From an uncultured Croceitalea sp. (GTDB lineage Bacteria; Bacteroidota; Bacteroidia; Flavobacteriales; Flavobacteriaceae), in NCBI GenBank assembly GCA_937969515.1, contig CALBVX010000077.1, positions 1 through 33,215 of the forward strand: 33,215 bases of DNA. Reading direction: 5' to 3'. Positions 17,015 to 27,201 of this stretch are shown one piece after another. Below the pieces are notes generated by a model. It ran no database searches, was not told where the DNA came from, and worked only from the letters and a program-made list of their open reading frames with translations. The translations under genes were made by a program, and so were the position numbers. Numbering within the stretch: position 1 is the first letter of the stretch; each line of letters begins with the position of its first letter.

Positions 17015-17896
17015 ATGGCAGAAGTACCTATTTTTTGGGATCCCAAAGGCATTGAACTCAACCAACTGGGCAAGAAGAGTAAATCTGGGGATCCCGCGGA
17101 CGGAGATACCCCTTATGTTAGAATGCCCATTCGCATGTTGGGCATTGACACCCCAGAAACAAGTTATTTAGGGGGTGAGTCTACCGCAAATGCAAAATTG
17201 GGTGAGCTAAAAACCTTTTTGGAAAGCGGCAATTTTGATTCTTGGATAGATTCTGGGTTGAAGGCCCTATTGCTGCCAAAACTTACTAATGCTGGTACTT
17301 TACAGATTACACAAGGTCTTGCAGCCAAAGAGTTTTTTAGACAGCTCATGAACCAAAGATTACAAAAGCCAAACGGAACCAACCGTAGTCTTTTTGTACG
17401 ATCCGCAGATGAGCATTTTGATCGTTATGGCAGGCTTCTAGCTTACGTTGCCCCCAGTTATACCAAAACTGAGCTTTCATCGGTTACCGCGGATGAACGA
17501 AAAACATTCAATCTTTTATTGTTAGAGTCTGGCTGGGCCTCTTCCATACTAATTTACCCGAATCTGCCAAAGAATTCTGATCTACTTCTGGCGAGGTTAG
17601 GAACAAAAAATGCCTTTGAAAATAACCTAGGGGCTTGGGCCGATTCTAAAATGCTTACAGCATATGAATACAGAATGTGCATGAAACTGCATCAACAGTG
17701 TAAAAAGGCTAAAGCATCAGAAGGCTTTTTTATTAATGAAAGTAGCTGGGTGCAACGTTATTGTGTTGACATGACCAGCCTAAAAATCTATAATCCGCAA
17801 CGCTACTATAAAGTAAAACCTTATAATCGTTTGTTTATCTGGGGAGATGATGTTAGAAAAGCTGTTGGAGAATTAAATCTGCAGGCCGGAGAGTAA
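17015..17896 (+). CDS. SNase-fold (thermonuclease-like) protein with enlarged core and C-terminal extension
   Basis: The 293-residue protein, read from the ATG at 17015 (an in-frame TTG at 17009 is less likely), carries the whole active-site pattern of staphylococcal nuclease: DGDT (29-32), R40 five residues before D45, DTPE (45-48), and R140 in DRYGR (136-140) before LLAYV. NLLLLESGWA and NNLGAW match later SNase core segments. It differs in two ways: about 90 residues separate E48 from R140 (about 44 in the classical enzyme), and about 80 residues follow the core, including C-rich and Tyr-rich stretches. No signal peptide is seen, so it is probably cytoplasmic or exported another way. It is likely a Ca2+-dependent nuclease; the substrate is unknown. 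Confidence 0.75.
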   Translation: MAEVPIFWDPKGIELNQLGKKSKSGDPADGDTPYVRMPIRMLGIDTPETSYLGGESTANAKLGELKTFLESGNFDSWIDSGLKALLLPKLTNAGTLQITQGLAAKEFFRQLMNQRLQKPNGTNRSLFVRSADEHFDRYGRLLAYVAPSYTKTELSSVTADERKTFNLLLLESGWASSILIYPNLPKNSDLLLARLGTKNAFENNLGAWADSKMLTAYEYRMCMKLHQQCKKAKASEGFFINESSWVQRYCVDMTSLKIYNPQRYYKVKPYNRLFIWGDDVRKAVGELNLQAGE

Positions 17897-17920: not shown

Positions 17921-18220
17921 TCATTTCGATAAAAGTGCTTCTATAATTTCCTTAATTTCATCTTGAATAGATAGCCTAGGAAATGGTTTGCCAGCCTGCC
18001 TATACCAGTAATCGGCATTAAACTTATCTCCTTCTGCGCGGTGTAGATGAGCATGAATCCAACTACCTATCGGGGTATGAAGGTCTTGGGCAATATCATG
18101 AGATGCTTCCCAATCATTATTTGAGGCATACCAAAGAGATTGTAGTGCCAAAGGCCATTCTGTATCCGGCATTTCTTCGGTCAATGTTCTTGTAAAATCA
18201 TCGTAATTCTGAGGTGTCAT
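17921..18220 (-). CDS. Small conserved-looking protein of unknown function
   Basis: The 99-residue soluble protein is rich in Trp (five), His and acidic residues. It has no signal peptide, no membrane segment and no Cys. The stretch ALQSLWYASNNDWEASHDIA followed by HAHLHRAEGDKFNADYWYRQ has the spacing of one or two helical-hairpin (TPR-like) repeats, but this is a guess. The composition and codon use look like a real gene, and I think similar proteins occur in other phyla. It follows the M23 peptidase gene by 9 bases on the same strand. I do not assign a function. Confidence 0.7.
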   Translation of the reverse strand: MTPQNYDDFTRTLTEEMPDTEWPLALQSLWYASNNDWEASHDIAQDLHTPIGSWIHAHLHRAEGDKFNADYWYRQAGKPFPRLSIQDEIKEIIEALLSK

Positions 18221-19894: not shown

Positions 19895-21784
19895 ATGAAA
19901 CCTTATTACCTCAAATTAACGCTATTCTTTTTAGCACTAAGCACAAATGGTTTTTCGCAAGAAACTTTTGATATTCAATTTCCTCAAGGCGAGAGAAGCA
20001 TTGTTTGTCAACGGTGCTTTCAGGCCTTTGCCCAAAAACCCAAGGAAGTAGGTTTTTCAATTAAGATGGACAGAACCAATACGCTCTATTTTGAGGTGAA
20101 CGATAAGAAATGGTTTAACCTCTTGTTTAAAAACGCAGGTGATGGTATTGCCGTAGATGTCGTTTCAAAAGATAGGTATGGTTGTCTCGAAGTACTGCCA
20201 GAGTTACAGCAAATACGGGGTGAACTTCTAAAACCAGTTTACGCCCCTGAGTTAAAAAAAACCCTTCGCCCAGCTGAGAACAATAAATTTAGAGCTCGGG
20301 TCGGACGCTTGCCAGATTCATACAAGACTAAAGAAGTTGAATTTAACATCCTCTTTTTAACAGATAAGAACCTTTGTCAATACTACACTATTTTCAACCT
20401 AGAATCCTACCAATGGGATTTGTTGGATATGGGCATGTATCTAGACTCTATAACCTACAAGACCAAGTTAAGTGCCAAAGTGAAAGATGACCAGTATTCG
20501 CTCAAACAAAAAACACTCACGTTTACCATTCCTTTTGAAAAGAATAAATCTATCTATTCTCAAGAGGATATAAAACCCCTTTACGATTCGCTCAGATTGA
20601 CTGATTTCAATATCAAAAAAATTGATATAAAGGCTTATGCCTCAGTAGAAGGTAATGCCGAACGTAACCTAAAACTACAACAAGAAAGGGCATCAAGCAT
20701 AGTGAAAGCCATGCAGGCTTTTCAAGAGCCCACAATAGAAACCAAAGTTTCTACGTCTGAAAACTGGGTAGAGTTCTTGAATGATATTACCGGAACAAAC
20801 TTTGACTCTTTTAAATCGCTGACCAAAGCCGAGGTAAAACAAAAACTTACTGGCAGCACTGCACGAGAATTAGAGAAATACCTTCGAAACCATAGAAAAG
20901 CAGTTGTTCGTTTAGAATTGGAACGTATAGACAAGTATAAGGACATGGCTACAGAAGTCATTATTGGTTTATTTAATCAAGCAATTGGTGACGATAATCT
21001 AGACGAAGCAACTACCCTGCAAAACTCGATTTTTGAACGCTTAAAAGGCAAAGAAGCAAATCCAGATGTATTGTCTTCCATGGAAATACCAAGACAGTTA
21101 AAATATGCGCCATTTTTTAATAAAAACTCTGCTTTTAGGTATTTAAAGGATGAACGCAATCTGCTTATTGCTTATAAAGAACTCCAAGAGCTGGAAAAAT
21201 TAGCTCCAAAGGACAAACGAATTAAATACAATATTGCCGCCCTAAAAATGCGTATTTGGCGCTATAACGTAGAACCTGTAAAACAGGAAAATTTTAAGAA
21301 CGAACTCTTAAACCTAAAAAAGTACGGCATTAACCAAAGATTAATCAATCGTATGCTGGTGAACTATCACATTATTAAAAGTGAGTTGTACATGCGAGCA
21401 AGAGATTATGCCAACAAGGATAAATCCGTAGCATATATAGTGGCAAACTATAAAAACGTACCACTCCAAGATTATGATTACCTTAGTCTAGCCCAGTTTT
21501 TGACCTATTATGCCGACCTTAAGGCTGCCGAAAATTTACTACAACCAAAAATGAAGACCGTAGACGTTGATGAAAATCTGTTGTTTTACTATCTAAACCT
21601 TACATTGGTGAATAAGGAAATCATTCAAAATCCTGAGTATCGCACCATCATGCTCAATGCCATTAACCTAAACAAAGAACGATTCTGTAGGCTTTTCAAT
21701 GCATCCAATGAAGGTGGTGTAACCTTTCAGCTTTTGGAAGATGATTATTTACATGACACCTATTGTGAGAGTTGTGAGAACTAA
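19895..21784 (+). CDS. Exported protein with OmpA-like domain and C-terminal helical repeats
   Basis: The 629-residue protein has a signal peptide (about 1-22, ending NGFSQ). The mature N-terminus has IVCQRC (36-41) and a beta-rich region to about 200. A likely OmpA-type peptidoglycan-binding domain follows (about 208-345): FTIPFEKNKSIYSQEDIKPL, IKAYASVEGNAERNLKLQQE, then RASSIVKAMQ. The C-terminal 280 residues are helical, with TPR-like spacing (KELQELEKLAPKDKRIKYNI, YADLKAAENLLQPKM). The protein ends in CESC (624-627). The paired CxxC motifs at both ends are unusual for an OmpA-like protein and could form disulfides or bind metal. It is probably periplasmic and works with the DUF3089 lipoprotein encoded just upstream; the OmpA assignment is by pattern, not certain. 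Confidence 0.7.
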   Translation: MKPYYLKLTLFFLALSTNGFSQETFDIQFPQGERSIVCQRCFQAFAQKPKEVGFSIKMDRTNTLYFEVNDKKWFNLLFKNAGDGIAVDVVSKDRYGCLEVLPELQQIRGELLKPVYAPELKKTLRPAENNKFRARVGRLPDSYKTKEVEFNILFLTDKNLCQYYTIFNLESYQWDLLDMGMYLDSITYKTKLSAKVKDDQYSLKQKTLTFTIPFEKNKSIYSQEDIKPLYDSLRLTDFNIKKIDIKAYASVEGNAERNLKLQQERASSIVKAMQAFQEPTIETKVSTSENWVEFLNDITGTNFDSFKSLTKAEVKQKLTGSTARELEKYLRNHRKAVVRLELERIDKYKDMATEVIIGLFNQAIGDDNLDEATTLQNSIFERLKGKEANPDVLSSMEIPRQLKYAPFFNKNSAFRYLKDERNLLIAYKELQELEKLAPKDKRIKYNIAALKMRIWRYNVEPVKQENFKNELLNLKKYGINQRLINRMLVNYHIIKSELYMRARDYANKDKSVAYIVANYKNVPLQDYDYLSLAQFLTYYADLKAAENLLQPKMKTVDVDENLLFYYLNLTLVNKEIIQNPEYRTIMLNAINLNKERFCRLFNASNEGGVTFQLLEDDYLHDTYCESCEN

Positions 21785-26151: not shown

Positions 26152-27201
26152 GTGAATATAGATGAAAAATACATGTTGCGCTGTATCCAATTGGCCAAAA
26201 ATGGATTAGGCACTACAGCTCCCAATCCAATGGTCGGTTGCGTAATTATTCACAAAGAAAAAAATATCGGAGAAGGATATACCAGCCCTTATGGCGGGCC
26301 ACACGCAGAAGTGAACGCAATCAACGCTGTAAAAAATAAAGCAGTACTTTCTGCATCAACGTTATACGTCACCTTAGAACCATGTGCGCATTTTGGCAAA
26401 ACGCCACCTTGTGTTAATCTCATTTTAAAATATAAGATTCCTCGAGTGGTAATCGGACTTCAAGACCCGAACAAAAAAGTAGCTGGCAAGAGCATTGAAA
26501 TGCTAAGAGGTGCTGGTTGTGAAGTTAGCATTGGTGTTTTAGAAAAGGAATGCCGTGAGCACCATAAGCGATTTTTAAGTGCTCAAGAAAAACAAAGACC
26601 TTATATCATATTAAAATGGGCAGAAACCATAAATGGTTTTATCGCTCCGGTTAACGCCATCCGTAAAAAAGAACCCGAACCCTATTGGATTACCAATCCA
26701 TATTCCAAACAACTGGTGCACAAATGGCGCAGCCAAGAGCAGGCAATCTTAGTTGGAACAACTACCGTTTTAGCCGATAACCCAAAGCTCACTGCAAGAA
26801 CTTGGAAGGGTCAAAACCCTGTAAGGGTAGTTATAGATAAAGATTTAAAGATACCCGCTAATTATAACATATTCGATGGTTCTGTTAAGACCATTATTAT
26901 TACTACGATAGATGATACTTCAAAATTTATGGATAGTGTCTCATATGAAACTGCAACCTTTAAAAACTTACCAAAAGAAATTTGCGATATACTCTACAAA
27001 CATGAAATAAATAGTGTTTTTGTAGAAGGTGGTGCCCAGACATTACAAGCTTTTATTGATACTAATTTTTGGGATGAAGCCAGAATTTTTAAAGGAAATA
27101 TCACTTTTGCAAATGGAATTAAAGCTCCAAGTATAACAGGAAAACAGATAGCCGAAAAACGAATTTTAGAGGACAATTTGAGAATACTTAAAAATGATTA
27201 A
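26152..27201 (+). CDS. ribD: Riboflavin biosynthesis deaminase/reductase RibD
   Basis: RibD deaminates and then reduces the pyrimidine intermediate in riboflavin synthesis. The 349-residue protein has the N-terminal deaminase with zinc-site HAE (51-53), Cys78 and Cys87 (PCAHFGKTPPC), and the C-terminal NADPH-dependent reductase (LVGTTTVLADNPKLTAR). It starts with GTG at 26152; that gives the conserved N-terminus, whereas the ATG at 26173 would lose 7 residues. The end overlaps the HAD phosphatase gene by 8 bases, so the two are likely coupled. The HAD enzyme may act on a phosphorylated intermediate, but nothing shows this. Confidence 0.96.
   Translation: MNIDEKYMLRCIQLAKNGLGTTAPNPMVGCVIIHKEKNIGEGYTSPYGGPHAEVNAINAVKNKAVLSASTLYVTLEPCAHFGKTPPCVNLILKYKIPRVVIGLQDPNKKVAGKSIEMLRGAGCEVSIGVLEKECREHHKRFLSAQEKQRPYIILKWAETINGFIAPVNAIRKKEPEPYWITNPYSKQLVHKWRSQEQAILVGTTTVLADNPKLTARTWKGQNPVRVVIDKDLKIPANYNIFDGSVKTIIITTIDDTSKFMDSVSYETATFKNLPKEICDILYKHEINSVFVEGGAQTLQAFIDTNFWDEARIFKGNITFANGIKAPSITGKQIAEKRILEDNLRILKND

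Follow-up and report, generated by a model that had tools for sequence, protein, structure and literature searches.

What does a nuclease of the staphylococcal type do in a cell when it carries two additional segments and no visible signal peptide? This question is raised by a gene in a 33,215-nucleotide stretch of DNA (hereafter the window) from an uncultured Croceitalea sp. (contig CALBVX010000077.1 of assembly GCA_937969515.1). Staphylococcal nuclease (SNase) is among the best-studied enzymes. A preliminary description of the window had suggested that its SNase-fold protein could be a host-associated nuclease with a new regulatory or targeting domain, or an effector. The gene and its parts are as follows.

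17015..17896, + strand: whole gene, 293-aa SNase-fold protein, ATG to TAA
17099..17158, + strand: SNase core, N half, residues 29-48, with DGDT (D31), R40, D45-T46 and E48
17159..17308, + strand: insert, residues 49-98, lying between E48 and helix 1 of SNase and modelled as two helices, 55-71 and 80-90
17309..17638, + strand: SNase core, C half, residues 99-208, with YGR140LLAY and a final helix ending in GAW
17639..17893, + strand: C-terminal extension, residues 209-293, with helix 216-231, then strand-strand-helix-strand-helix
17753..17881, + strand: possibly Ada-like part of the extension, residues 247-289, with R248, D252, Y264 and R272 invariant and without the zinc-type Cys set

An in-frame TTG two codons 5' of the ATG is the mechanical start of the 17015-17896 ORF. 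Since a protein of the same size is conserved in other phyla, chance or a frame error is ruled out. The G+C content of the gene is 41.6%, compared with 37.1% for the window, which would fit acquisition, but the difference is small.

The SNase core

The window protein belongs to the SNase family, as judged from a profile match above cut-off, its active-site residues and an OB-fold match. The Pfam SNase profile (PF00565) matched residues 39-209 with 32.8 bits (E 1e-7, cut-off 21). In a profile alignment to the S. aureus enzyme, DGDT and R-x-L-x-x-DTPE were found in the N half and YGR-x-LAY in the second half. All five classical active-site positions named in the preliminary description are present, namely D31, R40, D45, E48 and R140, which we take to be D21, R35, D40, E43 and R87 in S. 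aureus numbering. We compiled a family set of 18 rows, which includes one of seven Vibrio plasmid matches and leaves out duplicates (L016, L018, L021, L045 and others). D31, R40, E48 and R140 are present in all 18 rows, and the position of D45 is occupied by D in 17 rows and by E in one. With the catalytic residues kept across these rows, the nuclease is probably active, as had been proposed.

Structural comparisons pointed in the same direction. In a profile search of the PDB, the best 60 of 256 matches were all staphylococcal nuclease entries; the single window protein had no PDB match by sequence up to E 10. The full-length structure model had a mean pLDDT of 69.7, and residues 1-50, which include most of the active-site residues, had values of 26-45. 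The best 50 of 146 Foldseek matches to this model (E up to 10) were all staphylococcal nuclease (prob 1.00), with modest numbers for the best one (E 3.6e-3, TM 0.22/0.45). VIA-align of the full model with SNase gave a Z of 6.4 and an rmsd of 3.7 over 118 aligned residues. As the full model is of middling quality, we base the assignment of the core on its sequence no less than on its structure.

The insert and the C-terminal extension

The segment from E48 to R140 had been described as about twice the usual length. It spans 91 residues in the window protein, compared with 41 and 42 in the two ordinary thermonucleases that were measured (L088 and L089), which confirms the description; the script did not parse two further controls, L087 and the ordinary SNase in L031. 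Across the 18 family rows the spacing is 91-102 (17 by script, L003 by alignment). In the full model, the insert does not consist of mere standard SNase loops but has helices at residues 55-71 and 80-90 in a block with a pLDDT of 74-92. Its mean pairwise identity is 0.46 (16 rows), and no Pfam match was found for residues 49-109. The flexible active-site loop of SNase is positioned where the insert follows E48, so a cap or gate is the natural guess for its function.

The extension begins after the GAW that closes the SNase fold and comprises 85 aa (residues 209-293), including all three Cys of the protein (222, 229 and 250), with no CxxC. The length and the three Cys reported earlier thus hold, but the strictly kept residues are others: E218, R220, R248, D252, Y264 and R272 are each found in all 18 rows, while C222 is kept in 15, C250 in 16 and C229 in two. 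CxxC occurs in two rows, near the N-terminus in L033 and in the tail in L055. L214 and the six strictly kept residues are retained even in the 25-26%-identical proteins of G291 (a distant Bacteroidota relative) and Vibrio. Mean pairwise identity over 16 rows was 0.82 for the DGDT-DTPE stretch, 0.65 for residues 247-289 and 0.55 for the C half of the core, making residues 247-289 the best conserved segment after the DGDT-DTPE motif; the whole tail and the second half of the nuclease core are about equally conserved (0.55 each). The conservation of charged residues in the tail speaks for function rather than filler. The tail had no Pfam match up to E 10 and no PHROGs match. Both the insert and the tail are kept in bacteria and archaea, in agreement with the earlier view of extra modules beyond the SNase core.

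Absence of a clear export signal

Within the first 40 residues, the highest Kyte-Doolittle mean of any 15-residue stretch was 0.31 for the window protein and ranged from -0.19 to 0.52 across the 18 family rows when read from the Met aligned with the family start, whereas it was 2.22-2.83 in four of four ordinary SNases. By hydropathy at the conserved start, none of the 18 family proteins has a clear export signal, and the earlier observation of no visible signal peptide is borne out. By this test, therefore, the window protein is not a secreted thermonuclease. It should be noted that upstream extensions exist in five of the 18 rows (window, L005, L032, L033 and L034). The frames of L030, L032, L033 and L034 were trimmed so as to begin at the Met that aligns with the start of the family, whereas for L005 a downstream Met was used. 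With the longest upstream starts, 17 rows had maxima of at most 0.71, and L034 reached 1.71, a moderately hydrophobic value.

An ordinary, signal-bearing SNase directly adjoins the extended one in genome G1204 (L031:9458-10015(-)); its best NCBIfam match was EcnA (E 2.6e-22, below the cut-off of that model). The presence of the two types side by side suggests that they have different jobs.

Distribution and phylogeny of the family

Species genomes contained eight full-length loci, 45-89% identical, in Croceitalea, Muricauda, three Gammaproteobacteria, and Asgard, Altarchaeum and 'Deltaproteobacteria' assemblies. A full-length relative with 34% identity is located on a linear plasmid of Nonomuraea. 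The distant Bacteroidota protein of G291 has the full design, and via this protein relatives were found on seven Vibrio plasmids, ~25% identical to the window protein. The preliminary description had allowed that homologues might be ordinary annotated thermonucleases of this size. In plasmid records they are not so annotated, and all eight relatives there are labelled 'hypothetical protein'.

The gene was found in 1/149 genomes of the bacterial family (the window's own genome only). In the phylum, 5/395 genomes were matched, with the full design only in the own genome and G291 and a match to the N half alone in three. The corresponding numbers were 2/227 around the Asgard genome, 3/398 around a gammaproteobacterial genome (one partial), 7/198 around the 'Deltaproteobacteria' genome (two partial) and 1/29 around Altarchaeum. 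These counts include the centre genomes, and the sets of 149, 395, 398 and 198 are even draws from larger groups. They indicate that the extended SNase is rare and scattered.

In the tree of the 18 rows, archaeal rows fell among bacterial ones. Altarchaeum paired with G1179 (88/89), and L007 and L029, the latter from the same phylum as the Asgard genome, both lay within an unresolved bush of 11 rows (95/99); the placement of the three long rows L010, L035 and L055 is unsure. This nesting reflects either transfer between domains or misplaced contigs, and family matches of a few other genes on the contigs do not settle the choice. With one design of ~295 residues recurring in bacteria and archaea that are not related, the protein appears to represent a nuclease family of its own and not an ordinary secreted thermonuclease.

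Between the window and L002, dS was undefined for SNase, dapA and DUF3089 and was 2.4 and 2.7 for DUF6913 and M23, while dN was 0.083 for SNase and 0.076-0.139 for the other genes. Since synonymous sites are saturated, no selection ratio is claimed.

Comparison of the tail with the Ada N-terminal domain

The predicted order of strands and helices in the tail may be that of the Ada N-terminal methylphosphotriester DNA repair domain (PF02805), and the two share weak profile similarity around P-x-NR-x-F. When the tail was modelled alone (92 residues, pLDDT 62.7), Foldseek gave seven matches with E <=10, of which two were Ada, the top one being N-Ada bound to DNA (E 1.7). Among 13 chains compared with the tail model, three had a Z of at least 2, and all three were Ada (4.0, 3.6 and 3.2). 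The best Ada chain, 1u8b, aligned 48 residues with an rmsd of 2.6 on this model of pLDDT 62.7, and its Z of 4.0 is weak, since unrelated folds can score that high as well. Taken by themselves, such values are no proof, and profiles were therefore compared.

The Ada set consisted of 25 of 28 PF02805 loci, leaving out L072 (wrong frame) and L074 and L086 (motif script), to which five plasmid proteins found via a hand-typed query (L087-L091) were added. The hhalign comparison of all 18 tails gave P 0.0062 against 30 Ada-like sequences and P 0.0042 against 16 short Ada-like sequences, and subsets of the core rows gave P 0.017 and 0.0015-0.0023 against the Ada-like sets, five comparisons in all. 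The hhalign probability was 3-17% with the Ada-like sets and <1% with the classical Ada set. Around 'KVKPYNRLFIW', the alignment pairs 'RYYKVKPYNRLFIW' with 'GKRMKRENRVFF' in a register close to the structural one. The tail-Ada score was reached by 0, 0, 4 and 0 of 200 column shuffles. In 34 comparisons of other parts of the family alignment with Ada, none came near the tail score (highest 11.2), and one of 96 comparisons using segments of unrelated proteins outscored the tail-Ada match (21.5). As a positive control, the classical Ada set was compared with the short one and gave a score of 78. When the tails of two deep relatives were compared with the core tail, the score was 19.7, roughly that of Ada, and on their own these tails gave no Ada match (P 0.08-0.14). 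The classical Ada set alone aligned with the tail over six residues only, out of register (P 0.12-0.13).

Ada domains of PF02805 have four Cys zinc ligands, whereas the tail of the window protein is without that set and hence has no zinc site and no methyl-acceptor Cys. Because these ligands are absent, the window protein is not a member of PF02805. In the Vibrio relative, by eye, C-A-P-C lies near the first Ada Cys pair and the second pair is absent. Taken together, we regard the Ada-like reading of the tail as a weak link, with a chance of being right a little below even.

In three thermonucleases, from Methanothrix (L087), Carboxydocella (L088) and Peptoclostridium (L089), the SNase domain is followed by an Ada-like tail of the zinc type. 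They resemble the window protein in having a small domain, possibly of the same fold, behind the SNase domain. However, they have a hydrophobic N-terminus and zinc-type Cys, both lacking in the window protein, and the cores of L088 and L089 are of normal length, half the E-R spacing seen here or less. In Carboxydocella, the next gene upstream of the nuclease (L088:495-785) encodes a stand-alone protein that is annotated 'Metal binding domain of Ada' and has a hydrophobic N-terminus. An apparently separate small family of Bacteroidota Ada-like motif proteins (L075-L077, L079, L080 and L082; open frames of 76-293 aa) has the motif 'LKIYG-x-L-x-C-x-SGKRMK...NRVFF...GYRPC-x-x-C'.

Gene neighbourhood, defence and phages

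An all-against-all comparison covered the neighbours in 17 stretches, the window plus 16 loci; the L030 member (G785) is absent from it because a longer overlapping frame masked this member, and its frame was read separately. No partner gene recurs in the 17 stretches beyond local synteny, which covers the Flavobacteriaceae (window, L002 and L003) and the related Gammaproteobacteria L005/L006. The sole other recurring pair links L029 8471-9136 with window 26152-27201, a deaminase-type match located far from the gene in the window. A chosen subset of neighbours was searched with Pfam, PADLOC or NCBIfam. Across the loci, genes for toxins, immunity or secretion were not seen repeatedly next to the extended SNase, and neither the host-associated role nor the effector role suggested earlier gains support from the neighbourhood. 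The Nonomuraea plasmid has Tad-pilus-type genes on the opposite strand, at a distance of 3 to 8 kb, and in the two Vibrio plasmids that were read the next downstream gene has a RICIN domain. Each of these is confined to a single lineage, so the negative result for an effector is not clean. The Asgard contig has a C5 DNA methylase ~6 kb from the extended SNase.

PADLOC gave no significant defence match for the window protein (best SNc+LTD, E 0.003, 14.7 bits, partial), and none of the neighbours scanned (6 own, 10, and 3 proteins) matched a defence family above noise. The only further matches were a partial one to GajA in one Asgard neighbour (E 9e-4) and a partial one to ZorB/MotB (E 3e-4) in the 629-aa protein of window 19895-21784(+), which has a weak OmpA/ZorB-like stretch around residues 222-284.

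Viral contigs contained no relative for P0001, alignment A1 or the Vibrio protein, and phage records had no match for the window, Nonomuraea or G291 protein. The deeper alignment A4 recovered two relatives from viral contigs, L057 and L058, which are ordinary-sized SNases of 168 and 193 residues. A PHROGs match to a phage 'nuclease' family covered the core only (residues 132-215, E 8e-5, 22.7 bits). The structure search against viral proteins gave nothing at E <=0.001, and its top rows include nuclease-like proteins at E 0.09-0.24.

Relation to known SNase-fold proteins

The window protein shares its fold and active-site residues with staphylococcal nuclease/thermonuclease (PF00565), but it has no signal peptide, ~50 extra residues after E48 and a tail of 85 residues. 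Plant CAN1/CAN2 are non-secreted, single-SNase, Ca2+-dependent nucleases with an insert of ~55 residues between two Ca2+-binding Asp residues, and an N-terminal motif is predicted to give them a lipid anchor (PMC3505149). The insert of the window protein, in contrast, lies after the second Asp and E48. The plant enzymes show that ~55 inserted residues are compatible with Ca2+-dependent DNase activity in an SNase that is not secreted (PMC3505149). Tudor-SN is also intracellular and has a domain added at an SNase domain, but it is eukaryotic and multi-SNase, and the inserted domain is Tudor (PMC7641849). There is no family model for the extended intracellular SNase in Pfam, NCBIfam, PADLOC or PHROGs, and no description of the family was found in the open-licence literature searched; it is a real variant of a known enzyme.

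A proposed function and its alternatives

We favour, at somewhat short of even confidence, a cytoplasmic, metal-dependent SNase-fold phosphodiesterase whose insert caps the active site and whose metal-free Ada-like tail selects the substrate, encoded by an accessory gene that crosses phyla. The enzyme would cut nucleic acid (DNA or RNA) by standard SNase chemistry, probably with Ca2+. The helical insert, at the position of the flexible active-site loop, may cap or gate the active site and so control access. The C-terminal domain would be an Ada-N-like DNA-binding fold that lost its zinc site or never had one, gripping the sugar-phosphate backbone through conserved Arg, Asp and Tyr residues (R248, R272 and their neighbours). 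By limiting the enzyme to particular substrates, we propose, the tail would let the cell tolerate the nuclease. The gene may be spreading between phyla as an accessory. The protein lends itself to asking how cells keep a potent, non-specific nuclease harmless or make it selective, and whether the DNA-binding fold of Ada can do without zinc and the reactive cysteine. We also considered a more specific version, a lesion- or modification-directed cytoplasmic nuclease in which the zinc-free Ada-like domain reads the backbone and positions the SNase site, with the insert as gate; its targets might be alkylated or sulfur-modified phosphates or unusual strand structure. We think this improbable, but if true, a single gene would both sense and cut, and this system would have been passed on between Bacteria and Archaea.

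Somewhat less probable than the favoured reading, and still a serious contender, is the same cytoplasmic nuclease with a family-specific tail unrelated to Ada, which would pack against the SNase core to stabilise it or to form dimers; the resemblance to Ada would then reflect a common small alpha+beta arrangement. The weakness of all the Ada statistics, the absent zinc Cys set and the failure of the classical Ada profile to match in register agree with it. However, no chain other than Ada reaches a Z of 2, the profile and structural alignments are close in register, and ordinary thermonucleases have an Ada-like domain in this slot of the architecture. A stand-alone defence nuclease, degrading invading or own nucleic acid once infection admits Ca2+ or a modification is sensed, seems unlikely. 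The rare, scattered occurrence in bacteria and archaea, the position at a junction that differs from genome to genome within the genus, and the plasmid copies in Nonomuraea and Vibrio would suit it, but no defence family matched the protein or the scanned neighbours above noise, no partner gene recurs, no homologue appeared in phage records, and the variable junction also holds peptidases. As the cellular role, defence is given a minor share, and repair or nucleic-acid turnover would share the rest.

The readings that place the enzyme outside the cell fare worse. SNases are typically secreted, and L034 would have a moderately hydrophobic upstream stretch if the longer start were used; both agree with a thermonuclease for nutrition or biofilms that is exported although it has no classical signal. 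We consider this very unlikely, given that all 18 rows are without a hydrophobic N-terminus at the conserved start by the hydropathy measure and that L031 has its ordinary signal-bearing SNase beside the extended one; a type IX substrate, too, would still need a signal peptide. Least probable, and only barely conceivable, is the effector of the preliminary description, a toxin delivered to other cells. The nuclease domain and the Tad-pilus-type and RICIN-domain neighbours are compatible with it, but Pfam detected no delivery domain in the window protein, no neighbour recurs beyond local synteny, and conservation spans the whole length and not a toxin tip alone. We prefer substrate recognition by an intracellular nuclease to the host-associated or effector reading.

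The DUF6913 junction in the genus

The marker DUF6913 is present in 8/8 genomes of the window's genus, and the extended SNase stands beside it only in the window and G1367; genome G446 has no copy of the extended SNase. At the Muricauda locus, the extended SNase lies between the same outer neighbours as in the window. The far side of DUF6913 varies, with Exo_endo_phos in L049, L050 and L051, a subtilase in L047 and an X-Pro peptidase in L052. Two ORFs separate DUF6913 from the Exo_endo_phos gene in L051, where DUF3089 was not seen. In L048, orf99 adjoins DUF6913, without an SNase. The 99-aa ORF downstream of the SNase in the window, 17921-18220(-), has no Pfam match above cut-off and is kept in L002 and L048 with 54-56% identity; in L048 it is this ORF that adjoins DUF6913. 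The Exo_endo_phos genes (342-350 aa, predicted nuclease/phosphatase) are the following.

L049:1836-2888, - strand: Exo_endo_phos gene
L050:7253-8281, + strand: Exo_endo_phos gene
L051:7885-8919, + strand: Exo_endo_phos gene

These genes, in 3/8 genomes of the genus, are on the side of DUF6913 that holds the SNase in the window; that the two genes replace each other there is only a guess. Two of the proteins have no signal peptide by eye, and the third is 72% identical over its length. Plasmids of proteobacteria, 20 in number and 17 of them from Sinorhizobium, encode proteins with 52-57% identity to the Exo_endo_phos protein, and three Vibrio plasmids encode distant ones.
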